This document shows positions 21,026-58,354 of a stretch of DNA of 64,000 nucleotides, one piece after another. The notes under the pieces are model-generated. The model saw only the letters and a list, made by a program, of their open reading frames with translations, had not been told where the DNA came from and did no database searches. Location: NCBI GenBank assembly GCA_013420905.1, contig JAAXNY010000001.1, positions 7,626,001 through 7,690,000 of the forward strand, in the 5' to 3' direction. The position numbers and the translations under genes are program-made. Numbering within the stretch: position 1 is the stretch's first letter; every line of letters starts with the position of its first letter. Origin of the DNA: Collybia mongolica. Lineage: Eukaryota; Basidiomycota; Agaricomycetes; Agaricales; Clitocybaceae.

Positions 21026-21972
21026 ATGTTCTCACACCACCATCACCACTGGGCTTGTGTCTGGATTCCGGTGTTTGGGGCTTTCATATGGTTCTGTAAG
21101 CGCTTTTCTTACGTTTATCGCTACCAAAGATCCGCCTGACCTGCGCTCCAGCCACCCTGCTCTCTATGCTGATAACATGGCTAGCAACTGGCCGGCCCAG
21201 ATATGTTTCGCAGGAAGGCAGCATCGCGTACATCTCCGATGTAGGTGCCGACATTCTTAAACCTCTTTTTATCGTGGGATGCGCCATAACGGCCGTGTCG
21301 TTCTTTCTGTCTCTGGTTGTGGAACGATGGTTAAGGCATTCCGGACGGTTCGTGAATGTTTAGCATACAGCCCCACAACACGTGGTTTGATTTGTCTGTT
21401 CTCTTCAGATTGATGCCGCACCTGCGCAAAAGAGAACGAATCTTAGGCTCTCTAGCTGTTTTTGGGTCCTTCGTTGGAGGGGTCGGACTTATTCTCCTTT
21501 CAATTTTCGACACCAAGCGACACTCCTCCCTCCACAGGTTATTTCTTCTTATTTTCATAGTTGGCGTGGCAATGAGTGCTATCTTTACGATCATTGAGGT
21601 ATGATGGGCCATCTTTGTTGCATGTCGTATTCCGTTCTCACAATCTTATTGTTCAGCATCGTTGGATTAGCAAAGACTTCGTATACTTCCGAAAACTCAA
21701 GACCGCTTACATGGCGAAGGCTATTATTGCCACGATACTGATTTTGTTGGCCATAGCCTTCGCTGTCGCATTGTACACAAGCCCTAACACTGGAGGTATG
21801 ACAATCCATTTATAAACAGGCATCCACTGACCGTGCTGCAGCTGTCTTAGAGTGGACAATCGCCTTCGGTTTCACTCTTTATCTTTTGACGTTCTTCTAT
21901 GATCTCAAACAGGCTAAGAGTATGCATAAAGGACAATTGAGCAGAGAAAAAATGATAAGTAGGGGGCCGTAA
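21026..21972 (+). CDS. Frag1/DRAM/Sfk1 family membrane protein
   Basis: Five exons (21026-21095, 21152-21347, 21409-21598, 21657-21795, 21842-21972) give 241 residues, in phase throughout. The family signature is clear: CVWIPVFGAFIWFSTLLSML, then ATGRPRYVS, then IAYISDVGADILKPLFIVGC, followed by ERWLRHSGRLMPHLRKRE. The last part contains helices ILLSIFDTKRHSSLHRLF, VGVAMSAIFTIIE and TIAFGFTLYLLTFFYDLK, giving six hydrophobic spans, which is normal for the family. Yeast Sfk1 acts at the plasma membrane with PI4-kinase and lipid asymmetry; metazoan DRAM members act in lysosomes. A lipid-homeostasis role is inferred from the family only. The N terminus has a run of five His. The donor after HSGR (GTTCGT) is weak but keeps frame. 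Confidence 0.9.
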
Positions 21973-22144: not shown

Positions 22145-23695
22145 TCACCACCCTCCGGGCATGGGAGAGCTTGTGGTAGTCGTTGATACGGATTGCACTG
22201 GTGGCTGATCTGTCAAGTTGAGTTCTCGGTCAAGCTTCAGCGCAAGTTCAAGGTCCTTATCCTCCTGCTGTTTCCGCCTTGTCGCCTCTTCTTCCATTCG
22301 TCGAAGTGCTTCGACGCGACTTGGATCAGGGGAACTCTCACGTGGCAAAGACTGGCGACTGCGGGGTGGACTTGTGGATCCATGTGGGAGAGGAAGGGGT
22401 GTCTGATAACGTGCTTGCAAGTAAGGGTCAGGGAGCTCCGGGGGTTGGCGATAAGATGAGGTCCGTTGTTCAGGTGCATGTGCGCTTAGTTGGTAATTGT
22501 CATTCCCTTGTACTTGAGGGACTGTGGGAACGGGGAACAGCAGCGGGGCCGCGGGGGCATGGTCTGCGGTCCATACTTGTGGGGTGGATAACACAGGCCG
22601 AAAGTGTGGGACCGTTACGCCCGGAGCCGTGTTGGTTTGGTATCCTTGAGGGTGGGAAGGGGTGGCACTGTAACCAGCATTTGGGGAACTGGGGCGTACA
22701 TGATGGTCATCACGGGATGACCCTGGAGGATGGCGTACGGGTAGCTTGCCGTGTTGGGGAAGGGAAGTGTGTGAAATTTGATTACTTCCTGGGCGCAGAA
22801 TTGACGGGATTTGGGGCGGACGGACATCCTGAAGCCTTGGTTTCGCTCCACCGCCACCAGGTACAAGCATGGTGGGGAGCGGTGCTTGTAGGAGCCTCTG
22901 CTCTGGAAGAGGTGGGAGAGGCGACTCAGAACGCTTGGACGATTCCACAGAAGATGACCTGGAGGAAGAAGGAGAAGGCGGGAGAAGATTTGTGCCGACA
23001 GAAGCCTGCGCGTTGGAATAGTTTCCTTGTCCTTGGTATCTCGCATTACTGTGAGAAGAATGAGATGGTGGTGGAGCCGATGCTTGAAAGGGGCGGTAAA
23101 GCCTATCAGATGGAGACAGCTTTGATGGCCTCCTCGCAAGCGCAGAACTTGTGGGGACCAAAAGACTACCATGCGTCGCGGCAGCTGGGGCGTTCGCAAA
23201 ATAGGTCATTTCAAGGTAGAGGTCGCCACGTACGACCCCGTCAACATCCAGGCTTACCCACTCTATACCACGAATCATTCAATTGTCATCAGGAGAAAAT
23301 GACAGCGACTTACCGTCAAATTCCCCTGTTCTCAGGGTATCCGTGAGGTCGACTGTACCTCTACCCAGTATGTCATCGGACCTGCGTTCCTTCGCGAAGC
23401 ACGCTACCTCAAGCTTCCTATACTTGGCAGTCGTGTCTTTCATCACTGGGAACCGAATCTCTTCGTCCCATATTGGGTGTTGACCACCTTTAACATCCAC
23501 CTTCGTCCGCTTCGTGTTACCTATCAGAATGGACCGAAGCTGTGATTGTCAGGCGCCGAATAAAGAACAACCAATCATACCATTCAGTGATATCTGTGCA
23601 AATACGTCTTGTTTGTAGAATGAATGTTTGTCATTCAAATTTCTCGCTTTGAGGACCACAACTACAAGTGTGCCTAGGTCGTTCTCTTTCGACAT
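22145..23695 (-). CDS. C2-domain protein with long Pro/Ser tail, Inn1/Fic1-like layout
   Basis: Three exons (23695-23581, 23520-23314, 23262-22145) give 479 residues. Residues about 5-125 form one C2 domain: LGTLVVVVLKARNLNDKHSF, then KQDVFAQISLNG, then VDVKGGQHPIWDEEIRFPV, then DDILGRGTVDLTDTL, ending GDLYLEMTYFA. Most acidic Ca-binding positions are not obvious, as in cytokinetic C2 proteins. The remainder is Pro/Ser-rich with many PxxP stretches (for example RSESPLPPLPEQ). Near the C terminus a charged helix has the core LELALKLDRELNL, similar to a ubiquitin-interacting motif. N-terminal C2 plus PxxP tail is the layout of Inn1 (budding yeast) and Fic1 (fission yeast), which link membrane and SH3 proteins during septation. 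Orthology is plausible but not shown. Confidence 0.82.
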
Positions 23696-24042
23696 TCTCG
23701 TTTACTGCGGTGAATTTGAGGGTACTGAGGAAGGTTCGCTTAGAATTTCATCCATCAACTTGGGAACCATGTAATTCCATACGAATGATTTGAAGTTATC
23801 CTGTGCGGTGAAAGCTGTAGTCGTGGAGATCGATGGATGTAACCTCACGGAAAAACGCTGCATCCGAAGGAATCTTATCTTATCAATCGTGTACGATCTT
23901 GAGTTGATGCTCTATCTTATCTGATATCAGAAATCCGGCAAGTACGCGATATGTTGGTACAGGCCCAGAAAACGTGCTCTCAACTCGAAGCGACGAGGAA
24001 CAGGAAAGCAATTCTGATATTTACTCATAAACACAAAAATTA

Positions 24043-26206
24043 TTACGCAACTACTTCCCCCCTCCCTTCGGGGCGATACTGGATCATATTCGGGAATTGG
24101 TTGAAAACCATCTAGTCACCGTTAGACGAGTTTCTGGCGTACACAAACAATAGCATACCTCTCTGTAAGAATCTCGCATCCTCATTCGCATCAAACACTT
24201 CGACGGAACAGTCTTGCTCTCAGCGCTGAACCAGGCCTTTCTGAGACCATGATCGACAGGAATGATTGCCTCCATGTGTCGCCTGAGCATCTCCCAACCA
24301 CGGCCATTGTGATGGAGCCCAAGTACTCGGATCAGACGCTGGATATGGTTGTGGACAAAAGTGTGATAGAACTTAGGGTAGGTCTCTTCCAGTGTCTCCG
24401 TGATGACACAGTGATCGGGAAGGAATTCGAAGTTGACCCCAGTGGTAGCGCAAAGCGTTGCGGGGTGGATGCGGAGCCCGCCAAGGTCGCGCACAACGAA
24501 TCCCAGAGGTTCGCCAGTGGTTGAATCAGCACGTAGAAGTACATTTTGAGCATGCGCTTCAAACGAAACCCCATTGTAAATCAAGGGAGGGAGAAGTGCT
24601 TCGCAAGCGAGCTCAATATACCTGCGAGATAGCATTGAGAATCGGGGGATTTGGTCATAAAAGATAATTACCGATCTAAGAACGTTGCACGTTTCTCTTC
24701 CGTATCAAGCCCAAAAGCATGTTCAACGGCCGAGACTCCGGACGGTACTCCGGCATGATCCATTTCTAATAGAGACGCACAGACGATAAGCGACTGTCCC
24801 TCCAGTGGCTCGAACTCCTCTCTTAGGACTGCTGTAAAGTGCTTTGCAAGCTCTGGATTTTCTGAGTGATAGACCGCACTCGCAGGCTCGCACTCAATCG
24901 ACAAGATTGCAGGATCATAAGAGAGCCTCGGAACAACATCTGTCGAAAACCGTGGGCCGAAATCGGCTGTGAAATGTGAAATCGTCCGTAGCGAAGACGA
25001 TATTTTGACCCCGACAGCCAATTTGAGAGATAGCCCAGGAAGTTCGGGGATAACAACAGTTCTATAGAGGCACGATCAGATAACGAGCAATACCCCACAT
25101 GGTTCACAAACCTGATACTAGACTGGGCAAGAGCTTGGAGGCTAATGTCGGGGTGGAGAACTTCAACATCATGGAACTTGCTCGCGATATTTGGGACCTG
25201 TAACTCATGGACTGGCATGAATACAGACGAGGGGTTGTTAGGTAGTTGGCGTCCAGATTTCACAGCTGCCTTTTCTGCTAGGGCATGCATATGAGATTCA
25301 AAAGGCCCGAGAAGGTCGAGACTGGTCCGTGGGACCCGTACGAAACGGATACGAGGATGGTACCAATCATATTCTAGAACACTCGAAGGAAGCATTCGCG
25401 CACGATGCATCTATCCTTACATATCAGCATCAGTCAATGACAAAGCCACCCGAGACTCACCGGATGGGTTGGGTGACCGGCCACGAGACTTTGCTCCCAT
25501 TCGATGGGGGATGATGTCAATGTAGGGCAACGAGGAGGAGATTGGAAAGACAACACTTTTAGCGATGTCAGTTTCACACCTCACCAAAAGCGCACGATAC
25601 ATACACTGCCAATCATATGAGCTTTGGAGTTCCTTTTCGATGGCCTCGCGAAGAGTATCTTGAATGACAACGCCATCAACAAATTTCTTCCAAAGTTGAA
25701 CGGGGTCAGAAGCTTTTCTTAGCATATTGAATCCGCCAAGCTCCCAAGGAGGGGGGATCAGGCATGCCAAGATTGCTTTCTGAAGCTTGGTCTACAAAAA
25801 GATGTCCGTGAACGAGATATGACGCAACTAGGATGCGCGCAAGTACCTGGCCCGAATCCCCTGACGTTGCCTCGGACAGCTCATAAATCTCAGGGAACAT
25901 GTCGAGCGGGTCAACGAGACCGACCGGACGCCCGTGCTTGGACGTACCAGTATCACCTAAAACGGGAGGGTGGCGAAGGGGAACGACGGCGAAGACGTCG
26001 TTTGGACGGAGGGCTCGATCAATGACGGGCTTCTCTGAGATGAGGTGAGTGGATAGAACGACCAGCACGCCAGATATCTCCGGTAAATCTGGGATGGCTA
26101 TGTAAAGGCCGCGAAGAATCTGTTCTGTTACGAGGCATGATAGGAGGCGAGATATAACAGCAAAAGCTGCGTGCTGAGGGGGAGGTAGGCCTGATCCGGA
26201 CGACAT
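24043..26206 (-). CDS. IucA/IucC-type NIS siderophore synthetase, copy A
   Basis: Predicted 620-residue enzyme of the NRPS-independent siderophore synthetase superfamily, which activates a carboxylate (often citrate) with ATP and joins it to an amine or alcohol. Seven exons: 26206-25847, 25791-25605, 25555-25461, 25410-25112, 25061-24672, 24621-24159, 24111-24043. Phases agree and there are no internal stops. Motifs in order: EWEQSLVAGHPTHPMHRAR (the GHPxHPxxKxR ATP-loop signature), FMPVHELQ, VKISSSLRTIS (S-x-RT motif), GVSFEAHAQN (EAHxQN), GFVVRDLGGLRIHP, and a C-terminal FhuF-like helical part FVHNHIQRLIRVLGLHHNGRG. Length is normal for the superfamily (about 580-650). All splice positions match copy B at 27611-29823, so the two are tandem duplicates. 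A TTTAAATA element lies about 45 bp upstream of the start. The acyl and amine substrates cannot be told from sequence. Confidence 0.87.
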
Positions 26207-26408
26207 CCTATAATTCTCGAACGGAGGAACCAAGGGGGCAAAAGATTGATATTTAAACCAATGGCAGCCAATAGTGTTGCGGTGGAAAAATCGGTCGGTG
26301 GTGGAAGTGGCGAGATTTTCTTGGCAGGTGAACGTGACAACTCCAGAAAACGTGCTTTGACTTGACCATAGGCCAGCGGGCGTGGAAGAAAGAACTGAAA
26401 AAGTGTAA

Positions 26409-27429
26409 TCACGACATGTAGGGGTGATTCCTGAAAAAAATACCAACTTTGAAGTCGTTGCGATGTAAGTGTGGATCCCGATGACGGCTAAATGTCCCAG
26501 CCCCAGGTCGGACGATCCAGATGAACCAGAAAGATTGAGATCCCACCCAGGATAAGAAAGAATAGGAAATTAGCACCGGGGAGGCTGAAGATTTGTTCAC
26601 ACCGCACTCGATCTTGGAGCGATGGGAAGTGTCGTGACAGAACTCAGGCGATCCAACAATGAAGCGTGTACCAATAACGTCGCTGTTTGGAAGAGAGATC
26701 GAGTAACCAAATTTACAACCTGAATTAGAGTAACATCGGCATCATCGTAAGTGGCAAGCGAGGGTTTCAGTGTGTCTGACGCATGGGGAAAGTCTGGAAA
26801 AAGTCTACCGGTCCGACTGGACTCCATTGCGCAGTTAGTGCGCCGAAGGTCGGGATTCGGAAATGTCGGATATTGAAATGAAGATCCGGGGCCCGACCGG
26901 CTCATCCAAAGGTTAACTTGAACGTATGTGAGAGCCAAATTGGCATTGGGAGCAAGAGTATAGGGTATATGTGATACCAAAGATCATCAAATGGTCCGTT
27001 ACCAAGGTGGGGGCATTGAATTGTACACTTTTCCAGAGGTAGGAGCCGGGGATCTGGCGAAAGACACCGTAGTCGGCATCGATATATTTTAGAACATGAG
27101 GTTCAGAGTTTGATTCTTGTACATCATACTGGAGATTGAGCCTTCTCCATGCCTGAGAAGAAAGCGCTTTGGCTGACGCAGGAGTGGCGGGATGGTTCTC
27201 ATGCGCGAAGGGAAGCTCAAACAAGGTCAACTTCGAACCCGTCATAAAAATGGGCTTGGAGCTCCTTTCTGATAGATTAACAAAGCCAGGAGCGAGGACC
27301 CGTTGAAATTCAGGAAAAATGTTCCCCGACAGTCACTCCGTGGGGTGTAACGAGTTCGAAAATCCCACCATGGTGTGAAGGGTGAGGCTGAATCAGGTTT
27401 GACGCCGGAGATTTAGGGAAATCGTCCAT
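26409..27429 (-). pseudogene. Decayed gene of unknown family between the two NIS genes
   Basis: Coding-like stretches run in order on the minus strand. From 27429: MDDFPKSPASNLIQ to FELVTPHGVTVGEHFS. After a one-base frame shift near 27325 the reading continues EFQRVLAPGFVNLSERSSK and on through VLKYIDADYGVFRQIPGSY and VTDHLMIF. A possible intron (about 26978-26920) leads to VNLWMSRSGPGSSF and further to DDADVTLIQ. A last stretch (DVIGTRFIVGSPEFCHD) needs an intron whose phase I could not make fit. No domain was recognised. I read it as a broken gene, but a sequencing error at the frame shift would leave a short real gene. It sits within about 0.2 kb of both synthetase genes on the same strand. 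Confidence 0.45.
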
Positions 27430-27610
27430 TCAGTGACCCTTGGAACCTTGTGGTGTTGCGGATGTTGAGGGAGGCATGCCAGCGTCAAGTGTGAATACGC
27501 TGTGTAGTTGAAACTCCGCGAGCGTGACCCATAACTTTGCGGCACAAATAGATTGTTTCATGGTTAAAAAAACGTTGCATACATAGGGCATAATAGGTAG
27601 ATAATTCTAA

Positions 27611-29823
27611 TTAAACATCATCAACGCTGACTCCTCGGTAGTGGATGAGGTTCGGGAAAGGACTGTGAAGATGCTTTTGGAACGTCTTTAATGTGTAATT
27701 CAACTCAATGAATAAGAGGACTCACGAAGCGATACATGCCCACCATACGCATTCTTAGGAAGCATTTGGATGGGAGAGTCTTTCTCTCAGGCGAGAGCCA
27801 CGCAGCATAAAGTCCATGGTCTTTCGGGATTAATTCGTTCAAGTGGTGTCGAACGACCTCCCAGCCTCGGCCGTTGTAATGCAGCCCGAGCACGCGGATG
27901 AGCTGCTGCAGGTGATTGTGAAAAACTGTGTGGTACATCCGTGTGTAAACATCGTCAAGGTCTTCGGCGATAATTGAGTGGCCTTCAAGAAATTCCAGAT
28001 CAACGCCGGTTGTTGCTTTTAGTGTTTCAGGGTGGACACGTAAACCACCGAAATCGCGAATGATGAACCCACGGAGCTCTTTCGTAGCCAGATCAAACCG
28101 TGCCAAGCAATTCTGTGGGTGACACTCGAATGCTACACCATTATTGAGAACAGATGGTAGGAATGCCTCGAAAAATACGCGAATGAACCTATCAAAATAT
28201 ATTATTATACAATCGTGAGATATCTTTGATGGTACGCACTTGCTCAACCAATCTATACGTTTCTCTTCTGTATCGAGGTCGAAGATGCGGACAACCGGGG
28301 GAATATGACCATCTTCGCCGCTGTGGCCATTCTCGACGAGGGCTGTGCAGACAATCAATCTTTCTCCGCGTTCCTCGCTTGTGTTCTCATGAGCCTCCCG
28401 GATGATCGCTGCACAGTGTTTCGCAATTTCGCCATCGGGGTGTGCGTGAACAACGCTTGCAAGCTCTTTCGCGACGGTGACTACTTTCGGGTCCATGGAA
28501 AGCACAGGAACAACGTGCTTTGAAAACCGCGGGCCCAGATAGGCTGACGCAGGAGAGATCGTTCGCACAGCAGATGTCAGTTTCAGCCCGACACCGAGCT
28601 TAAGTGAGAGTTCGTGATAGGCATCAGGAACTATTACAGACCTATTGAAATTGAAATGATCAGAAGGGGGGCTGAATCGCAAGAAGTACTCGCAATTACC
28701 TGACACTCTGTTGGCCAAATATAGGAATGCTGAAATCATTAGGAAAAATTTCTGCTTCGGGGAATTTGTCCTGGATATGCGTTACTTGTAATTCGTGGAC
28801 AGGGACGACGACGTATCCATCTCGGAGGGGCAATACCCGGCCAGCTGCTTTTGACATAGCAGTTATGATTGGCTGGGTATGCATTTCGAACTCGTAGGTT
28901 ATCTTAAGGTTATCCCTCGGGACTGCAACCAACCTCAGTTTGGTATTATATAAGTCATACTCTCCCGGTTCATATTCTGGAAGTGGAGGTAAGAAGTGCC
29001 GAGTCTTGTGCATCTGAAATGAGAGTGAGGTTATGATAAGACTAGAAATGTCGAGTTATTTACTGGGTGCGTCGGATGTCCTTCAACAATTGACTGTTCC
29101 CACTCGAGACTGGAAGAGAGAAACACAGGGGCTCGAGGTGGGTGCTCATAGGAATACTCTGTGCAAAAGTCAGCACTATACAAATGTAAGAAACGATATG
29201 AAACTGACTCTGCCATTTATAAGAACTATCGAACTCATCCGTAATATCTTTTAACATCTCCTCGTGCAACTGAGCACCCCTACCAAACTTCTCCCAGATT
29301 GAAATGGCACTCTTGGAGACAACGAGTTGCGTGGTACCAGAGATAGCCCATCCTGGACCAGAAAGTTTTTCCAAGATAGCAGATTTTAGATCTTGGTGCT
29401 AAGGTTATATATCAATAAAGGAGACGACTCGGCGGAGAAATGGACAGAATATACCTCAAGCTCTTTGGCTCCTAGCCCATCGGTGTCAATCTCAAAGACC
29501 AACGGGAGCATGTCGAGGGGATCTAGGAGCCCGATTTCTTTCCCTCTGGTATCGGTCCCATCGTGTCTAAAAACTGGGACATGTCGCAAGGGAACAACAG
29601 CAATGATGTCTTTGGACTCGCACGGTTGCTGAGTAGGAGGTTTGGAAGAGACGTCGTTGCCGAGGAGAACGCATATTCCAGTAGCTTCGAATCCGTGGAT
29701 TGGGAAGTAAAGGGCTCTGAGAAGCGATTCGGTGACGAGACCAGATATAAGTCGGGCGTTGACAGCGAATATGGCGCGATCTTGTGTGTTAAGAGCAGCG
29801 AACCTGAGTGCTGAGATTGACAT
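27611..29823 (-). CDS. IucA/IucC-type NIS siderophore synthetase, copy B
   Basis: Predicted 635 residues, complete. Exons: 29823-29455, 29398-29209, 29158-29064, 29013-28700, 28641-28240, 28188-27726, 27685-27611. Exons 3 (95 nt) and 6 (463 nt) have exactly the lengths seen in copy A, and all phases match. Motifs in order: SLEWEQSIVEGHPTHPMHKT (GHPxHPxxKxR signature), VVPVHELQVTH, LKLTSAVRTISP, LIVCTALVENGHSG, GVAFECHPQN (in place of EAHxQN), GFIIRDFGGLRVHP, HNHLQQLIRVLGLHYNGRG. The N-terminal half is the IucA/IucC ATP-grasp-like catalytic domain and the end is the FhuF-like domain. The divergence between copies A and B suggests an old duplication and possibly different substrates, for example successive condensations on one carboxylate. 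It shares a short divergent promoter region with the ABC transporter. Confidence 0.88.
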
Positions 29824-30415
29824 GCCTACGGTGCAATAGTTTCAGTCAATGTACTAAAGTTTTCTGGATGGTATAAAAGTGGCGAGTAATAAATATATAG
29901 TATCCACGATCTTAATGGATTTTCCGACTTACGGATTGGATACTGAAAAACATAGTCACCATCCCAGATTCAGTGTATTGTAATTCCATTTGAGCATGAT
30001 GATCCGATAACGCGAGTGTGGAGGCAATAAAGAAGATTTCGTCGCTCCCAGCTTATAGATCCAGAAAAGGCGTGTACTGCATTAACCTTTCATTCTCCCA
30101 TGAACGATGAAAACGATCCCAAAGCCTGTTGGTTGGTTACCCAAAAAAGTTTGGGAGCCTCCCACCAGTTTCGTGGGAACTATTCCTGTTTTAGTAACTC
30201 TTAGCCGAACGAACCTCCATTGGTCGTGTTGACATTTTTACTCCCACTGAACCAAAGGATTCGGTTGCATTATTCATAGCTGACCGCCTGTTATGTCCTT
30301 GCCCCTTGGCGCGAGGAAGTTGCATGGTGTAATTGACAATATCTTTATATTAGGAGAGACAGAAAATGAGCATATCTCGCACCCACTTTTTTTTTTTTGA
30401 ACCGCGGCCCCGAAT
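29824..30415. promoter_or_regulatory. Divergent promoter region, NIS copy B / ABC transporter
   Basis: 592 bp between two start codons pointing away from each other, the right size for a shared fungal promoter. On the minus strand a TATATATTTATT stretch lies about 65-80 bp upstream of the synthetase start. A T12 tract lies just before the transporter start. One GATA-type site is listed separately. Co-regulation is inferred from arrangement only. Confidence 0.5.
30002..30010 (+). promoter_or_regulatory. GATA-type site ATCCGATAA
   Basis: Differs by one base from ATCWGATAA, the known target of fungal iron-repressor GATA factors (Sre/Urbs1 group), and fits the looser HGATAR. It lies about 180 bp upstream of NIS copy B and 405 bp upstream of the transporter. 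A single 9-mer of this kind can occur by chance. Confidence 0.3.
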
Positions 30416-33400
30416 ATGGCTGAGGAAAAAACCCCTCCAATCGCAAAGTCCTCATCTAAGGAGGACATACGTTCAGATACACCGAAAGTCGAGTTTAAGC
30501 ACCACCCTAATGTTCAACTTGATTTTGGTCAAGAAGTAACCAGGTTTCGTACACGATGGTGGCAAATCTGGTGAGCAAGGTTTTCTCCACGGTCCAGCTT
30601 CAGGGCAAACCCGAACTAAATCTACGCGTTCAGGATTCCACGAGATCCTCCGCCAAGGCCACCAGCCTCGTTATCGGACGCCCCTGTATGTTCCCGATTT
30701 CTTTACACGTTTTATTCTGACGCATTATTTTCAGGTCACCCCACTGGCTTCTGCCTCAATCTTTTCTCAATTGACATATTCCTGGGTCACACCCTTACTG
30801 GTAAATCAACTCTTACCGCTAATTTAACATATTATTTATCAGCCGGGTAATGAGGTCTTGGGTTATCAAAGGACTTTGCAAGCTACAGATCTGTGGAAAG
30901 TTGACGAGACCCGCGAAACGCAACGGCTCTCTTCTACCCTAGATGCTGCTTGGGATCGCAGGAGGGCTGAGGCAGACGCGTGGAACGCGCGACTACTCTC
31001 TGGCGAGATCAAACCTGGAGTCTTTAAGCGCTTACTTTGGACCCTACGATCCCTTTCCTCAGGAACACGTTACGCAGACCGTCGTGCGTTTTACGAGACA
31101 CATTGGCGTGAAATCGACGGTAAAAGGGAAGCTAGCCTTGTTTGGGCCCTCAACGATACATTGGGTCATTTCTTTTGGAGCGCAGGAGCTTTCAAGGTTA
31201 AACCTTTTTTTTCACTTAATCGTTCTACGTTCTAAATACTCCCCAAAGGTTGTTGGAGATACTGCGCAGCTCATGGGTCCACTTTTAGTCAAGGTGCGCC
31301 GATTCTAAATGAAAAGATAACCTCTCTCACACCCATACGAGGCCATCATAAATTTCGCGAAGGCGCGTGCCAAAGCAAGGCAAGATGGGACTGAACTACC
31401 AGCAGTTGGTCGAGGTATTGCAATGGGTATTGGACTATCTTGCATTATCATCATAGTCAGCGTAGCGCAGCATCAGGTGCATTCCCTCTTGCGTTAATCG
31501 ATTCTATGCTCACATGAAACGAGTAGTTTTTCTGGCGCTCGATGACCACAGGTTGTCTTGCTCGAGGCGCTCTAATAAGTTCTATTTATAAACGCGGAGT
31601 CAATCTTACCGGGAAAGCTCGTTCTACGTTATCGAATTCAGACTTAATCAACCATATCTCAACAGATGTGAGTTCTGGTTTTGGCGGCTTAAAAAGTTTT
31701 TGCATCTGACCTGCTGTAGGTGAGCCGCATTGATGCGTGTGCACAGTGGTTTGTAAGTTCATTGTTTTCATATACTCCACGTCGTGTTTCTCAATGTTAT
31801 CAATAGCATGCAGGTTTGTGGAACTTCCTCAAATATTTGTGCTGGCCTTCATGTTAGATTGTGACAGGGTGGACGGCTCCCATTCAAGTGACAATATGTC
31901 TAATCATCCTTCTTGTCCAGGTGAGACGAATTTCCAAAGGCTTTCCAGAATGACCATCTCACCCTTTCCCATGTCCCATGTCCAGCTGGGTCCATCCGCA
32001 CTAGCCGGATTCGCCCTTTTCCTCTTCATTGCACCTATACAAGCCAGGGTCATGGCGTATCAATTGCGCGTTCGACGCACGTCAATGAAATTTTCTGATC
32101 AGCGAGCGAAGACTCTTCTTGAAGTTTTGGGTACGTTGGCTAACATATCCTCAGTACATCACTTTTTGACAATTTCTCCAACAGGTGCCATGCGCGTTGT
32201 CAAATACTTCTGCTATGAGTTACCATTTTTGGATAGTGCGTTCCCTCGTCCTCTTAACATGATAGGTTGTCTGATTTGTGCCGTCCAGGGATTCTTCACA
32301 CCAGGAAGAACGAACTACGGGGAATACGGAGGATTCAGAATTCCCAATCTGCGAAGTAACACCGGCTAATCTGGGTCTCACGGAGCTTTGATAACATTAA
32401 CCATTTTCAGTGCCGCATTCGCATATTCTATCCCAGTACTTGCGGCCACACTTGCATTCGTCACCTATACTCGGGTTACAGAAGGTTTTGATGTTGCCAT
32501 TATCTTTGCGTCTCTCAGTCTTTTTCAGGTAAGCACATTTGCCGGTTTAAAACCTTTATCTAATTTTCCCACTAGCTACTCCGACAACCCATGATGTTCT
32601 TGCCTCGCGCTTTGTCTGCCACGGCAGACGCTCGGAACGCCATAGCACGACTATCTGTGGTTTTTCACTCAGAAATCATGTCAGAAGTTCCCTTCACGAT
32701 CAACTCGGATCAGGAACACGCTCTTCAAGCTACCGACGTCACATTCGAGTGGGAGAATATTCCTTTACGCAAAGATGAGAAAGGCAAACCAGCAAAGATA
32801 CCGTCATCCGAGGTAACCTTGACCGGCCCGTTCAGGGTCCGTGATATCAATATGTCCATATCGCGAAGGAGCCTTGTGGCCATAGTAGGTCGTGTAGGCT
32901 CAGGAAAGTCGAGTCTTTTGCAGGGACTGATTGGAGAAATGAGAAAAACCTCTGGCCAGTTTTCATTTGGAGGGCGTGTTGCATATTGTCCACAATCTGC
33001 CTGGATACAAAACGCATCACTCGTGCGTGGAACCAATTACCCGAGCTGACCCCTATCTTACGATACATAAAAAAAGAGGGATAATGTTCTTTTTGGGCAA
33101 CCGTTCGAGGAAGAAAGATACTGGCGCGTCGTCGAACAAGCATGCCTTCTTCCGGATTTACACCTACTTCCCAATGGTGATATGACGGAGGTATGTACAT
33201 GTACGATCAAAATCGAGAAGACGAAACTCACCATACCTTTCCAAGATCGGCGAGAAAGGAATCAATCTGAGCGGTGGTCAGAAGCAAAGGGTCAGTGCCG
33301 ATTCATTGTTTTGTTCTCCTGTTGTCGGTTACTAAAGTATCCCCCCTAGGTCAATATTGCCCGAGCCTTGTATTATGACGCTGATGTCGTTATTTTCGAT

Positions 33401-36400
33401 GATCCGTTATCTGCAGGTAAATTTTGATCAACACTCTTCTGTTCTATTAACTCAAACTTTTTAGTTGACGCGCACGTTGGTAAGGCCCTGTTCCATGGCG
33501 CGATCCTCGATCTCCGAAAGCGGGGAAAATCAGTGATTCTTGTTACGCATGCACTTCATTTCCTTTCGAGTTGCGACTATATATACACCCTCCATGACGG
33601 TCGTGTTGCAGAACATGGGACATTTGATCAACTCATTTCCAACAAAGGAGAATTTGCCCGGCTCGACAAAGAGTTCGGCGGTAACGATTCTCAAGCCCCA
33701 TCGGACGAGAAGAAACAAACCATCACAGTACAGAGCATTGATGAAATAAAATTGAAGTCTGCGCAGGGTGCCGCCGGCAGCGGTAAACTCGACGGGAAGT
33801 TAATTGTCAAAGAGCGGCGCACTACTGGTGCCGTTTCACTGAAAGGTGCCTTGACACTATCCTCTCTTATTTGGATTTTGCCTACTAACCTGCCCAAAAA
33901 GTATATGGGTCCTACCTAGTAGCAGGTCATGGATACATCACGGCCCCGTTCCTACTACTCGCAATCATCCTCATGCAAGGAAGCCAAATCATGAACACGT
34001 ATACATTGGTCTGGTGGCAAGCAAAGTAATTCCGACCTTTACCCTTTGATATCTCAGATCTTATGAGCATAACTTTTTTTTAGCACATTCGATCGGCCAT
34101 TTGGGTTTTACCAAGGACTTTATGCTGGTTTGGGTCTATTCCAAGCACTTTTCACATTCATCCTGTGCGTCATATATCGAACGTTGATTGGCGACCCGAC
34201 CTCATTCATGTGCTAGGGGCATTGCGGTGGACACCCTTTCGTGGTTTGTGTCGCAGAATCTCCATCACGACTCTGTCCGGAATATATTTTACGCAACGAT
34301 GGCATTCTTTGATACCACGGTAAGCACTGAAAGCCTGTGGACCAGTTGCTTCAGCTAAAAGTAGAGATAAGCCGACTGGGCGGATTCTTGGCGTATTCGG
34401 CAAAGATATTGACAGTGAGGATTTATCTGAAGTCCCGGTATTCTTGACATTTAACCCAAATCTTACAAAATAGCTATTGATAACATGCTACCTGGTATGA
34501 GACTAGACGACTTGTCATGCATATATCAGCTGAAACAAATGGTGTTCAGTCTCCTTAAGATTGCGTAAGTCAACATTCTTTTATGATTTTCCTCCGACTA
34601 ATATTGGATTTAGTATTGTTGACTATTTCCAATGTGTTTGGAGCAGTTGTTATTATCTCAGTAATCGTCCCATACTTCAGTGAGTAGCATATCCAGGACT
34701 TCCATAGAAATTATCATGCTAATCGCTACCAGTTATTGTGGCGATCTTCATTTCCCTCGGTTATCAATATTTTGCGGCTTTTTATAGAGCTAGTGCCAGG
34801 GAGGTCAAGCGCCTTGGTAAGGCATGCTGTCCAACCATCACATATCCCAGAATTCAAAAGTTTATAGATGCTATGTTACGCTCCATACTATATGCCCACT
34901 TCTCTGAATCTCTAGCAGGTTTGCTTCGATTGGCCTTCATCCATACAAAATACTGATGTTACAATGCAAGGTCTCCCTACAATTCGAAGTTATGGTGAAA
35001 TCCCTCGCTTCATTCAAGAAAATATGTCTTATATCGACCTGGAAAATCGAGCATTGCTCCTCACCGTTACTAACCAACGGTACGATCATAAGTTCCATCA
35101 ACCGTTCGCTACTGAGTTTCTTGCAGCTGGCTGGCTATACGTTTAGATTTCTGTGGGGCCAGCTTAGTCTTCTTTGTGGTTATCGTTTCCCTTGAATCAA
35201 GGTTTCCTCTCATTTTAAACCTAGGTTGCTATGTTCGCTGTGGTCGGCGTTTCGGGAATAAGTCCTGCACAAGTTGGCTTGATCCTCACCTATACAAGTA
35301 TGTATTTATCGATGCTCGTCGATACGTCGCTCACGGACCACAAGCCACTCTTACCCAGCTCTGTGGACTTCTTACTCGGCAGTCTGCCGAAGTTGAGGTA
35401 TTATTTGCACTTCTCACTCGTCACGCGCTAACAACTGGGTTCAGAACTTCATGAACTCTGTGGAGCGAGGCAAGTCCTCATATATATTACGGGACCATTC
35501 ATTTACCTATGTTCCACAGTCGTGCATTACAGTCGAAACGATATGATAGATCAAGAGCCACCTCACGACATACCGGGTTGTCGGCCGTCTCCCCACTGGC
35601 CAGAACACGGAGCTATAGAATTCAAGGATGTTTCAATGAGTTATAGACCAGGACTCCCAAATGTATTGCATTCATTATCCATGGTCATCAAGGGTGGCGA
35701 AAAGATCGGAGTCGTTGGAAGGACAGGTGCAGGCAAATCGTCCCTTGCTTTGACTCTACTTCGAATTGTGGAGTATTCCGGATCTATCATCGTAGATGGG
35801 TAACTAGCTGACTTATCTTGTTTTTTTTTTCCTCTGGTGCTAACTCTCCTAAAGTGTAGATATAGGAAAGATTGGCCTCAGGGATTTACGCTCGAAAATG
35901 TCGATTATACCACAGGATGTAAGTCCCATAATGAGATACCTCTTAACACCACTAAAAGATTCGGAAATAATCAGCCAACTTTATTCAGCGGTATGCCGAC
36001 CTTATCCACACAAGTGGCTTCTCTAATGACTATCGTTAGGCACTGTGAGGACAGCTCTGGACCCCTTCTCCATCTACGAAGATGCTCAGCTATGGGATGC
36101 CTTGCGTCGTTCATTCCTGGTCGACTCGGGGCCATCGACTCCAGACACCATGTCAATGATTGAGTCTGCCGATACACATACGCATCAAGGCAGAATGACC
36201 CTCGACACCGTTATTGAAACCGAAGGTTCAAACCTGAGTGTTGGTGAAAGGTCCCTTCTCAGCCTCGCTCGGGCGCTCGTGAAGGACACAAGAGTTGTAA
36301 TACTTGACGAAGCAACGTAAGAGCTCAACTTCTGTTGTACTGACCCCCTTTGATGCATTATCTCCAGCGCGTCAGTGGATCTGGAAACCGACAAAAAGAT

Positions 36401-36794
36401 TCAAAGTACAATCCAAACACAGTTCAAGGATCGTACACTGATCTGCATCGCTCGTATGCATCGCAGTTGGTCTTATTTACCGGTTGTTGCTAATCTTGAA
36501 TGTCGAAGATCGCCTTCGCACTATTATCTCGTATGATCGCATCCTTGTTCTTGATGCAGGCGCAATTGCAGTATGTCATTCGACTGTACGCAGATGACTT
36601 TTTTCCAACCAATTCAATTCAATCAACAGGAATTCGACACGCCTTTGAACCTGTACACCCGGAAGGACAGCTTTTTCCGTGGGCTTTGCGAGAAAAGCAA
36701 TATCACCCTTCAAGACATAGAAGATGGCCAACGTAACCCCGTATTCCTCTCCAAGCCTTTGGGTGAGGGCGACATAGAAAAGTTGGCAACGTAA
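30416..36794 (+). CDS. ABCC/MRP full-size ABC transporter, Yor1-like, intact
   Basis: ATP-driven exporter with the order TMD1-NBD1-TMD2-NBD2 and no extra N-terminal TMD0, as in Yor1-type MRPs; roughly 1,400 residues. I could join about 40 exons (about 39 introns) without a stop or a broken frame. The N terminus is MAEEKTPPIAKSSSKED and then WIPRDPPPRPPASL. NBD1: Walker A GRVGSGKSS (about 32889), signature LSGGQKQR, Walker B VVIFDDPLSAVD. NBD2: Walker A GRTGAGKSS (about 35719), signature LSVGERSLLSLARAL, Walker B VVILDEATASVD. The Glu in LSVGER replaces the usual Gln of LSGGQ. Special points: a 7-nt micro-exon at 31807-31813, and a GC-AG intron at 35470-35519. It is expected in the plasma or vacuolar membrane exporting organic anions or conjugates. 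Position next to the NIS genes suggests siderophore or intermediate export, which is inference. Confidence 0.92.
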
Positions 36795-51483: not shown

Positions 51484-53771
51484 TTATTGGCCGGCCAATT
51501 CACCGACACTCTCCCAAAACCTGTGGAAGTGATTCAATATGATCGAGCAATGTCTATAAATATCTTCACTCACTTGCACCTGTTAAGCAATTCATCTGAA
51601 GTTCTAATCGGAGCCACAACGGGCAGGTCGTCATTGGTTTTATTGAACAACATCTCCACAGCCCCTTTGTCCCATGTATCCCATCGTGGTGTGATATTTG
51701 TAGTGTCATACTTGACATTCGGGTCGAGCGAGATGACGAAATTCATGAATGACTGGGGGAAAGCCTTGAAGGCGGGGTTGGTAAATGAGGGAATGCCATT
51801 GGTACTCTTCCTGCAGGGCTGTTTCATATTTGGCGCGCAGATTATAAGAACTCTTGAATCTTACGACGTGAAATAATATGGAACATCCTGTCCGTGGCCT
51901 CCTGGGGGGAGTGCAAATTCGCCCTATGGGTGGAGAATAGAATCAGAGGTCAATCTTTCCAGTCGTAGCGGAGCTAGCCTTGAACGAGCGCTCGGGGAAA
52001 GCGCGAAGGAGATAATATGTTGGACAGATGAAAATGGCTATGTGTTGCTGTCAGCTCAGATAAGTATTTGGCGCGATTTTTATTTTTACATTCGCCCATT
52101 ATTCCAATGACCTGGTCGATTGGAGGGCCCTGATCTTGATAGAGCGCAGAACCAGTTGCAATCTCTTTTGTACCAAAATTGGGGAAGAGATTCTTGACAT
52201 ATTCTGGAACCTGAACGGTTGGAGCTGTGCTTGCGTTGACAAAGGCAGCGCCCTCGAACGTATTCGTGACCGCGTAGACGGCTTGCTGTAGTGAGTAGTG
52301 AGCTTTCTGGAACGTCGCATAACAATGATACACACCCCATTAACTTTACCCTGACGAAGAGCTACGGTAGGTCTCTGAGTGATGAAAGTCCCATCAACAA
52401 CTGGAACGAACGCAAAGGTGCCGAAGAAAGCATTGTCTCCCATTTGAATATTGATATTTTGGAGCGTTGCAGCAGGAGTACCCCGAAGGCAAGCAAAAGT
52501 ATTATCAGCTGCGGAACAGCTATAAGTTTCACGTAAGCTAAATATGGTCTTGTGGAAGACTGTTCGTTCACTTTGCTCGGGCGACTACGTCTTTGTACAT
52601 TTCCTATATTGTAGGTGGGTATGATCAACATGTCGTCCAGTCATGAGTGTGGAACAAACCTCTGGAATTATGTCGTCGAAACGGTATTGGGGAGGAATAA
52701 AACTCGAGCTTGTCATCGCTCCTCGAAAAAGTGGGGGCTTGGTTTGCCCGTCATGGGCAATAACATGTTGTATGACAGACCCAGCACCTACACGATGAAT
52801 TCAGCGGTCAGGAGAGTGCCTGCACGTCTGCGTGGCGCACCTGCTGATTCTCCCCATATAGTGACCTTCGTGGGGTCACCACCGAATTTGCTGATCTATG
52901 GGACACATGTAAGCAACAACAAGCGAACAAAAGCAATGACTTACATGCGTCTGAACCCACTTCAGGGCGAATTCTTGGTCCACTGACAAAGCAGTGAGTT
53001 GGTGAGTACCTCCCGTTATGGAATCAATAGACTTACACAGCCCTGCATTCAATACACCATTCTGTTTGACTTGCTTTCCTGGTAAGAAACCAAAAAGACC
53101 AAGGCGATATTGTATGACGACGGACACAACGCCCTTGTTGGCGATACCGAGGAGATCCTCTCCACTGAAACCAAAAGTGCTTCCCAGCATGTAACCTCCC
53201 CTGGAACGATCAATCAGTAAAGAACTTATTGGGGCGCAGAGAGCTATACCCATGAATCCACACAACAACCGGAAGCTTCTCATGGGCATGTTTGGAGGGC
53301 AGTCCTGGAGTGACAACGCTGAGCACCAGTGAGGAAGGCAATGCGAGTGGGGGGTGGGAGCGATAATACCTCAAAAATAAGCAATCTTCAGATGATACCG
53401 CAGCAGCACGCTTAAGAAATGTCTGTCCTGGATATGGTGCTGTCGGAGCGATCCCTTCACCTGCATTGAAGCATGACATTGGCCGCACGAATGCTTGCTG
53501 AATGCCACCCACTGCTGCAGGTGCACGAGGCGCTTGCCAGCGAAATTCGCCTACATAGAATCAAATCAACGTTCTTGCGAACTTTAGGACACAAAATACC
53601 TGCGGGAGGAGCGGCAAATCGCATGCCAAGGAATTCTGTATTGCCGGTCGTGGCATTTACTATTCCTTCGTATGTTGCATAACCAAGGTTGACGATTGGT
53701 CCAATAGCTTCAGCACTGACGAAAATAGAGGACACAACAAAAGTGAGTGAAATAAGGAGTTTCATGGACAT
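51484..53771 (-). CDS. Secreted type-B carboxylesterase/lipase, intact
   Basis: Alpha/beta-hydrolase of the cholinesterase-like (COesterase) family, hydrolysing carboxylic esters outside the cell. Signal peptide MSMKLLISLTFVVSSIFVSA (a second Met two codons on could also start). Joined exons contain YEGIVNATTGNTEFLGMRFA, SSEDCLFL, the oxyanion motif HGGGYMLGSTFGFSG, VVSVVIQYRLGLFGFLPG, and the nucleophile segment FGGDPTKVTIWGESAGAGS. The acid residue is in AVTNTFEGAAF and the catalytic His in LPPGGHGQDVPYYF. The C-terminal exon encodes FWESVGELAGQ followed by the stop at 51486-51484. About 540 residues. One intron appears to use a GC donor (51978-51977). Full triad, no stops or frame breaks, so it should be active. 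Flanked by two broken relatives. Confidence 0.88.
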
Positions 53772-56537: not shown

Positions 56538-58354
56538 TCAAGAAGTGTGGTCTTCAGCCTCCGCCCACATCTCGTGGGGTAGCTGGACCGCCAATAGCAT
56601 TGCTAGGCTGGAGAGGCCAAAGAGGATGGCGTAAACTGCATATCCTCCTAAAAGATTTCGCTGTACAGACAGGGAGAACAGAGAGGTTGACATTGCAGGG
56701 CCGATCGCGCGCGCGATGGAAACTGTTGTTTGCGAAAGACCATTTGTGGCTCCGAGAGAACGCTTGTTCGGGGCAGACGCTGTTATGAACATAAAGATAC
56801 AGCCTATTGTGTATATAGTTAGTATGATGATAAGAGTATGATACCAACATACCAAAAGACATATCCATGAAGGCCATTAGAGCAAGCATCATTCCGATCA
56901 TGACATAGATAACAGGCGTGACCCCAAAATGCCGAGCGTACTGGCTCATCATAGGGAATATCGTAAATACGGGGAGGAAAGTCAACATTCCCCAGACGAA
57001 TATTCGCCGCTCCCCAAGATAATGTATAATTTTAGCAAAATAGAATGCTTGAAACAATCCTGTAAAGGCTCCATAGGCACCCATAATGTATCCAATAGTG
57101 GGGGGGTCAAAGCCCAGTCCACCGATTGCAACGGGCATAGCAAAAAAAAGAGGCATCAGAGAGTTGAGAGAGATGTTCAGAAAGGCCAAAGTCATATAGT
57201 TTGAAACTGATATAACGACTGGGTATATCAAGAGTTTGCGAAGCGGGAGAGGCTGGTCTTCTGCGGGTATCGGCCCGTCTAGGATCACACCATCTTCTGA
57301 TATGGGGGTTTTACGACGATTGGTCTTTTTCGGGACGGTCTAATAGGCAGGTGAGCCAAAAGGTCGCTGATTGTACAGGTATAAAAGTGAGCCATACCTC
57401 TTCGAAAAGTATGAGGGTGATAAAGAATGCGATGATGACCAAACTTGAAGTCGCAAGACAGGGGAGAAAATAGGGGTAATTTTTCCAAAAAGAGCCCCCG
57501 AACAAATGTGGAAAGCGTTCATGAGGCTTTGACAGCGATCCTCCCATCAGGGGTCTTATATTCACGTTCAGCGTCTGGGTTTTCCCTGAATCCAGGCGAG
57601 CGAACGTACCCTAGGGTAGCACCTGTGGCCCATACCACAGGCATCAGAGAGAAACCTTCCGCTCTGTTGGTTGAATCTGTCAACTCGCCCATGACGCTTT
57701 TCATGACGCCTGACAGCGAGGGTTAAGCAATTTAATGGTTTGTTGGCGTTGGAAAGGAAAATAGGTACCGATGTTCCCGTTTAGTAAGCCACAGAGACAG
57801 CGGCTACAGTATTGTGAGATCAGAGGAAGAGTGGTCACCAATGAATGTTCCTCACCTCAGTATCAGAGTCAAAAATGTCCGCGACAGCCCGAAACTCAGC
57901 ATGGAAAGAGATAGCCCCATCAACCCAATCAAGAGGATTGGTTTGCGACCGATGTGGTCAGATATACGACTCCATTGTAGAACAGTAACGGCTTCTGTAG
58001 CAAAAAACAATGATTCCTACGTAAACGAAGAGTCAGATAATCTGCCAGCACAATTCGCAAGTTGCTTACGATGAGACCAGCGTAATAGCCCACTTTCCTC
58101 TCGTCTCCCCCGGTAATGTCCAGCTCGCTAATAAGCTGAGAGTAAGAGTAAGATCAATGAGGACTGCACTAACTATCCACCAAGGGCTTTACCTGGTTGA
58201 TGTATGGGTATATCGACAAGCCTGCTATCGGTTCGCAAACCTGAAGAAGCAAGATGATAGATATCTGAAGCCTTGGCAAGGGATTAGGCTTTCGACGTCT
58301 CTTAGCAGCGGGCAGTAGAGCTGTTTCCTCGTTGACGATATGGATATCGTCCAT
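56538..58354 (-). CDS. MFS transporter, DHA1/ZIF1-like
   Basis: Proton-coupled major facilitator with the usual 12-span layout, interrupted by at least six introns that keep frame. Starts MDDIHIVNEETALLPAAKRR. Landmarks: LLLQVCEPIAGLSIYPYINQ (span 1), the loop 2-3 signature WSRISDHIGRKPILLIGL, CLCGLLNGNIGVMKSVMGEL (motif C region with TD), PVVWATGATLGPLMGGSLS, a central loop TVPKKTNRRKTPISEDG, then GYIMGAYGAFTGLFQAFYF, and the last part NGLSQTTVSIARAIGPAMST. The same pattern occurs in the plant zinc-induced facilitator group and in fungal DHA1 relatives of yeast YCR023C. Substrates in this group include small metal-chelating molecules and drugs. No decay seen. It lies 27 kb from the NIS pair, so a joint role is only speculative. 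Confidence 0.88.

Follow-up and report, generated by a model that had tools for sequence, protein, structure and literature searches.

Members of the IucA/IucC family, the synthetases that make siderophores independently of non-ribosomal peptide synthetases (NRPS-independent siderophore, NIS, enzymes), activate a carboxylate by adenylation and then transfer it to an amine or an alcohol. Where bacterial pathways use two NIS enzymes, these work one after the other or at different ends of a backbone; SfaB and SfaD, which make staphyloferrin A, carry out two successive condensations on citrate. In fungi, Rfs of Rhizopus delemar is reportedly the rhizoferrin synthetase, a finding ascribed to Carroll et al. 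in 2017. Here we analyze a 64,000-nucleotide stretch of the Collybia mongolica genome (the window), which carries two adjacent NIS synthetase genes, NIS-A and NIS-B, and a gene for an ABCC (MRP-like) transporter. The pair is real and intact, and was read correctly at the gene level in an earlier inspection of the DNA (the sequence-only reading), which overstated its rarity.

NIS enzymes were predicted in Basidiomycota earlier (PMC8070225), and the rhizoferrin of zygomycetes is of the carboxylate type according to a review (PMC8781417). The closest described system is NIS Cluster 1 of Armillaria and the Physalacriaceae, where an NIS gene of 6-10 exons with IucA_IucC and FhuF domains is accompanied by a C2-domain/MRP-like gene, a Frag1/DRAM/Sfk1 gene and ABC transporter genes, and for which an Agaricus bisporus counterpart is described (PMC10700112). 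Cluster 1 enzymes are assigned there to Type A' (citrate plus amine) and grouped with FslA, SfaB, SfaD, LbtA and Rfs; for the window pair, the Type A' label is quoted from that paper only. Two core siderophore genes, identified as IucA/IucC plus FhuF proteins, are adjacent in most fungi compared in another study, and the NIS genes of Hypholoma sublateritium and Coprinopsis cinerea lie side by side as in the window (PMC8874372). Two core genes for NRPS-independent siderophores per cluster are likewise described in A. bisporus and Pleurotus ostreatus (PMC11942895). Compared with the latter two accounts, duplication age, intron comparison and ABCC linkage are added here. A product or a knock-out of a basidiomycete NIS gene was not recognised in a survey of titles and abstract starts, mostly outside subscription journals, which is no proof of absence.

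The window resembles Armillaria NIS Cluster 1 in having C2, Frag1/DRAM/Sfk1 and ABC genes beside the synthetases, and differs from it in having two NIS genes and one ABCC gene, whereas the Armillaria cluster has one NIS gene and duplicated ABC genes (PMC10700112). A P450 and a methyltransferase are also listed for the Armillaria cluster (PMC10700112); neither was met among the nine window reading frames scanned beside the string of Frag1 exons, which cover the flanks in part. In the phylogenetic tree described below, Cluster 1 orthology extends to both copies: Armillaria nabsnona P0159 and Agaricus P0144 fall in the B clade and Agaricus P0030 falls in the A clade. The B-clade protein of A. nabsnona and an ABCC homologue are encoded on contigs of equal size. 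Rfs has both of these domains and is likewise a fungal NIS synthetase, grouped with the Cluster 1 enzymes (PMC10700112). Likened to the window pair by description, it differs in being a single gene with a known product. The likeness of bacterial SfaB and SfaD is one of role: the same two-step logic is proposed for the window pair.

Gene models of NIS-A and NIS-B (Table 1), built like those of other window genes on consensus splice sites and homology, bear out the sequence-only reading of two complete synthetase genes in tandem: both have seven exons, are full length and lie on the minus strand. The end points that it gave for the locus, 24043 and 36794, are the stops of the NIS-B and ABCC models. 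All 12 introns of the pair are GT-AG and 40-58 bp long. A hidden Markov model check, proposed at the outset, placed both expected domains, PF04183 followed by PF06276, above the curated cut-offs (25 and 25.2 bits, respectively) in NIS-A (107.8 and 55.5 bits) and in NIS-B (87.7 and 54.9 bits). The four motifs named in advance were all found in both translations, with one correction of spacing. GHPTHP is present in both; the motif announced as S-x-RT is actually S-x-x-RT (TSAVRT in NIS-A, SSSLRT in NIS-B); E-x-H-x-QN reads ECHPQN and EAHAQN, and RD-x-GG reads RDFGG and RDLGG, respectively. The two proteins are 44.5% identical to each other. Among the matches listed, the top full-length homologue of NIS-A is from Hypsizygus marmoreus (77% identity over 99% of the length) and that of NIS-B from Lyophyllum atratum (73% over 99%), values that put the assignment of both genes far from chance. 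In the whole genome (46 Mb, 26 contigs), domain searches found just these two NIS genes; the searches were run exon by exon, so that divergent NIS genes may escape, and were positive in 2 of 14 control genomes each.

Conservation was surveyed in 96 A and 86 B homologues of 590-680 amino acids, together with 11 prokaryotic relatives. GHPTHP was present in 87 of 96 A and 83 of 86 B proteins. The [ST]-x-x-RT motif was found in 88 A, all 86 B and 7 prokaryotic proteins; ExHxQN in 94, 85 and all 11; and RDxGG in 91, 85 and 9, respectively. Catalytic roles of the motif residues are known from bacterial structures. Conservation reaches at least 97% in each fungal clade at 50 positions; at 23 of them the residue is shared by at least 9 of the 11 prokaryotic proteins, including NIS-A G213, H214, H217, P218, K337, R349, E478, H480, Q482, N483, R501 and D502. 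Neither NIS-A nor NIS-B looks degenerate. A loose C-terminal motif, MR[ML]R, was left unused; it occurs in just 57 A, 46 B and 3 prokaryotic proteins.

Since a sequence search of the Protein Data Bank (PDB) with NIS-A returned only AsbB (E 2.2e-4), the fold was approached through models of the nearest orthologues of the window proteins. AlphaFold2 models of the Hypsizygus A orthologue (P0002) and the Lyophyllum B orthologue (P0121) had predicted local distance difference test scores of 92.3 and 89.6, respectively; two of the structure alignments mixed A and B rows. The top PDB fold matches of both models are NIS synthetases (E 4.9e-24 and 7.3e-24, 14-15% identity), with AsbB first and DesD, AlcC, DfoC, SbnC, AcsD, IucA and IucC among the 50 matches listed. 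The NIS synthetase fold is thus predicted for the two closest orthologues. The designation of both genes as NIS-type synthetases is borne out by Pfam, by conserved positions and by this fold.

The distribution of the pair was determined from homologue searches at E <= 0.001, which yielded 197 proteins with NIS-A and 163 with NIS-B; the best 120 of each were used, and the counts that follow refer to these listed matches. Because about 8000 candidates were scored in each search and only the best 120 were listed, a missing copy in a given species is no evidence of absence. The lists contain 214 different proteins, 113 nearer NIS-A and 101 nearer NIS-B. Linkage was counted on 96 A and 86 B rows. 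Left out were 10 A and 11 B rows without a species name, together with fragments, merged models and further copies (A rows P0001, P0037, P0053, P0097, P0106, P0108 and P0111; B rows P0146, P0186, P0196 and P0212). NIS-A was present in 92 species, NIS-B in 84 and both in 67. For 54 of the 67, the records place A and B on contigs of equal size, which we took as the same contig; linkage by chance is possible on megabase contigs, and the contigs are shorter than 100 kb in 8 of the 54. An omitted pair from Termitomyces sp. T112, on different short contigs, would make the count 54 of 68. Readable ordinal locus tags were available for both copies in 18 species. They are consecutive in nine (e.g. HGRIS_003561/003560, CC1G_07067/07068 and Clacol_004880/004881; the CC1G pair, from C. 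cinerea, falls in the A and B groups), two apart in one, 11 and 46 apart in two, and far apart or on other contigs in six.

A corresponding search with the ABCC protein gave 771 matches, of which the best 120 were listed; 59 of these rows entered a linkage recount meant to take every row whose species occurs in the A or B lists. Of the 44 species that had both an ABCC row and an NIS row, 36 carry the ABCC homologue on a contig equal in size to that of A or B, and in Tricholomella the tags run D9615_009539 (ABCC), 009540 (A), 009541 (B). This indicates that the ABCC transporter belongs to the NIS block. The family is wider than the pair, with close homologues in Polyporales and in further fungi that have no listed NIS row. 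Linkage in other Agaricomycetes, for which a synteny check had been put forward beforehand, is seen both for the pair and for the transporter. The rarity implied by the sequence-only reading did not survive: at least 92 species have A and at least 84 have B, and the adjacent pair and the cluster are in print (PMC8874372, PMC11942895, PMC10700112). We conclude that the locus is ordinary for Agaricomycetes, an old and shared part of many mushroom genomes, to which the window adds one intact example. Two annotation anomalies were seen in passing. The 1089-amino acid Amanita phalloides model APHAL10511_007457 (P0001) matches both NIS-A (70%) and NIS-B (57%), and is probably a merged annotation of an adjacent pair. 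The name C2 domain-containing is given to several Mycena NIS-B models, which may have been fused with the neighbouring C2 gene or taken their name from it.

To place the pair in time, a tree of 57 proteins was built by a quick search with Shimodaira-Hasegawa-like approximate likelihood ratio test (SH-aLRT) support; it comprised the two window proteins, 44 of the 214 fungal proteins picked by hand, and 11 prokaryotic proteins as root (14 of 38 fetched loci were read and three products longer than 1000 amino acids dropped), and contained no characterised NIS reference. Lineages were looked up for six tree taxa. The fungal proteins fall on two sides of the tree, A and B. Agaricales and Russulales form one fork on each (SH-aLRT 99 on both), the A fork including one long Lentinula protein that had been set apart by label beforehand. 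Hysterangium and Clathrus copies join both sides, while those of Sphaerobolus and Gautieria join the A side. NIS-A and NIS-B each group with proteins of Hypsizygus and Lyophyllum (Lyophyllaceae, Agaricales), in keeping with the basidiomycete origin proposed for the DNA. All six intron phases are equal between NIS-A and NIS-B, and five of the six introns occupy matching columns of the large alignment, where the first intron sits in a variable loop; when NIS-A and NIS-B alone are aligned, the first and last introns are off by 1 and 4 columns, respectively. Shared phases and positions point to a duplication that most likely occurred inside fungi, with the introns already in place. It probably predates the split of Agaricales, Russulales and Phallomycetidae. 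Prokaryotic relatives are distant: for 35 found in the GTDB species set by a pattern search, identity in the best segment is 23-29%, and for plasmid-borne ones about 24-26% (best 20 of 24 rows), so that no recent donor is seen.

Two further observations concern these sequences. On Sinorhizobium fredii pNGR234a and an Agrobacterium vitis plasmid, the IucA/IucC relative lies in a common gene block with a Y4yA-type pyridoxal phosphate enzyme, cysteine-synthase-family and octopine/nopaline-dehydrogenase-family proteins and a major facilitator superfamily (MFS) transporter, a layout like that for an opine-like metallophore. In the tree, NIS-A-like (P0007) and NIS-B-like (P0132) proteins of Ceratobasidium sp. 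AG-I, presumably a member of Cantharellales, stand beside Lyophyllum in both clades; the A copy is on an 11.5-kb contig, and transfer between mushrooms or contamination may be involved.

As to function, we consider it quite probable that the stretch is the NIS siderophore locus of Agaricomycetes, equivalent to Armillaria NIS Cluster 1, in a relative of the Lyophyllaceae, with two enzymes that likely act sequentially or on different ends of a backbone and with export by the ABCC protein. The likeliest activity is the joining of a carboxylate, for example citrate, to an amine at the expense of ATP, followed by ABCC export. Most likely, NIS-A and NIS-B would each bind ATP, adenylate a carboxylate (citrate being the likeliest) and transfer it to an amine. 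That both copies are kept would be best explained by sequential action, or by each enzyme serving a different end of a polyamine-type backbone. The ABCC pump would export the product, which we infer from linkage; the substrate, the product, the division of labour and iron regulation are likewise points that we infer. A serious rival to a two-step pathway is two parallel products: A and B would be parallel enzymes, each with its own product, or each alone would make a rhizoferrin-like diamide, as Rfs is reported to do. Rhizoferrin formation in R. delemar needs only Rfs (PMC10700112), Armillaria nabsnona occurs only for B among the best 120 rows of each search, and among the matches listed there are seven species where ABCC is linked to B while A is elsewhere or unlisted. 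On the other side stands the retention of A and B on contigs of equal size in 54 of the 67 listed species, which favours joint use, and we regard parallel enzymes as possible, but doubtful. Several observations weigh against the two-enzyme siderophore locus that we prefer. Only 14 positions show fixed differences between A and B (at least 90% in each clade), so that divided substrates or a split of work are not visible. The exact GHPTHP motif is found in none of the 11 prokaryotic relatives, and GHP-x-x-P stands in its place in the four rows displayed. A and B are on contigs of different size in 13 of the 67 species, including Lentinula edodes, L. aciculospora, L. raphanica, two Mycena species, Tricholoma furcatifolium and Russula compacta, and the core genes of Stropharia rugosoannulata, whose mycelial expression is reported, are on two scaffolds (PMC8874372); adjacency is therefore not essential. 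Single core genes on separate contigs are also described for L. edodes (PMC11942895), matching the unlinked copies seen here. In the part of the flanks that was scanned (nine reading frames and the Frag1 string), nothing was recognised as a dedicated gene for an amine precursor. In a proteomic study of an Armillaria, expression of siderophore clusters could not be conclusively proved (PMC12973365). The 592-bp gap between NIS-A and ABCC contains one GATAA (preceded by C), and GATA-type sites are unenriched there; such sites were dropped as support. As to the age of the pair, the joins of Phallomycetidae have modest support (83 for A, 90 for B), which leaves a duplication before their split likely, yet insecure, and the tree is without bootstrap and has a prokaryotic root that is a long branch of odd composition.

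It is unlikely, in our estimate, that the product is another carboxylic amide or ester and no siderophore, with ABCC an unrelated drug pump. This would agree with the literature surveyed, which yielded no product for any basidiomycete NIS gene, with the unenriched GATA sites, and with an N-oxygenase-family gene elsewhere in the genome that may serve a hydroxamate route. The motifs and the orthologue fold, which agree with siderophore synthetases, speak against it, as would a Psilocybe cubensis ABCC homologue that bears the name fer6 in its annotation. In Ustilago, fer6 is an ABC gene of the ferrichrome A cluster, reported to be co-regulated when iron is perturbed and to be otherwise uncharacterised (PMC5561558). 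Highly improbable is a recent tandem duplication peculiar to C. mongolica, or a recent transfer from bacteria, either of which the stress on rarity in the sequence-only reading could suggest. The genome search, which found just two NIS genes, both in the window, would be consistent with it; the 44.5% identity of A and B, their old separate clades, their common introns and the low identity of all 35 prokaryotic relatives are not. The tree and the introns refute such an origin, unless the root is badly misplaced.

Returning to the siderophore locus that we favour, its wider form is offered tentatively, as a conceivable rather than a probable case: a two-enzyme line kept since the ancestor of Agaricales, Russulales and Phallomycetidae would make an undescribed carboxylate siderophore, exported by the linked ABCC protein, beside a hydroxamate route. 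The latter is suggested by a gene of the ornithine/lysine N-oxygenase family (PF13434, 144 bits) at positions 2018202-2019005 of contig C9; PF13434 was positive in 12 of 14 control genomes, so that the route is only hinted at. On contig C8 (399493-409322), PF13434 also gives two weak matches (34.8 and 33.3 bits), in oppositely oriented genes separated by about 9 kb. If one carboxylate siderophore were indeed made, many mushrooms would hold a second, non-hydroxamate iron route beside the known NRPS route, which would matter for how they compete with bacteria, for the supply of iron in mycorrhiza and for iron chemistry during wood decay. The question can be tested directly on the adjacent pair published for C. 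cinerea.

The ABCC gene was modelled by hand. It has 38 GT-AG introns and one GC-AG intron (35470-35519) and no internal stops, so the intact ABCC protein that had been announced stands as an open frame of 1440 amino acids, linked to the NIS pair in other species as well. Its description as divergent is right in the sense of divergent transcription, with 592 bp between the NIS-A and ABCC start codons. The closest listed homologue of the protein is from Lyophyllum atratum (73% over 99%). By sequence, it matches PDB chains of MRP1, ABCC2, ABCC4 and YCF1 with E down to 8.5e-239. Walker A, signature and H-loop elements read GRVGSGKSS, LSGGQ and LVTHA in the first nucleotide-binding domain, and GRTGAGKSS, LSVGE and IAHRL in the second.

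Table 1. Positions of the synthetase, transporter and flanking features in the window.
Feature	Position	Strand	Structure
NIS-A, IucA/IucC-family siderophore synthetase	27611..29823	-	7 exons, 635 aa
NIS-A exons	29823-29455, 29398-29209, 29158-29064, 29013-28700, 28641-28240, 28188-27726, 27685-27611	-	
NIS-B, second IucA/IucC-family synthetase	24043..26206	-	7 exons, 620 aa
NIS-B exons	26206-25847, 25791-25605, 25555-25461, 25410-25112, 25061-24672, 24621-24159, 24111-24043	-	
ABCC (MRP-like) transporter	30416..36794	+	40 exons, 1440 aa, open from ATG to stop
Intergenic NIS-A/ABCC stretch between divergent start codons	29824..30415	.	592 bp
C2-domain gene directly downstream of NIS-B	22145..23695	-	exons partly modelled
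Frag1/DRAM/Sfk1-family gene	21026..21957	+	ends approximate, exon pieces joined by eye

On the other side of the pair, the C2-domain gene has a PF00168 match of 34.6 bits within an open stretch at 23279-23548, with its ATG at 23695 and its last open stretch ending at 22145. The Frag1/DRAM/Sfk1-family gene (PF10277, 112.2 bits) lies next to it in convergent orientation. Downstream of NIS-B and upstream of the C2 gene, about 120 bp at 23801-23922 contain four GATAA sites, whose preceding letters are A, T, A and G; about 0.6 would be expected in this 337-bp gap from the window average, and with three gaps examined the cluster is only suggestive. Farther away, two open stretches on the minus strand, not obviously in the siderophore block, gave a carboxylesterase-family match of 29 bits (52879-53370) and a weak MFS match of 29.4 bits, under its cut-off (56557-57339).

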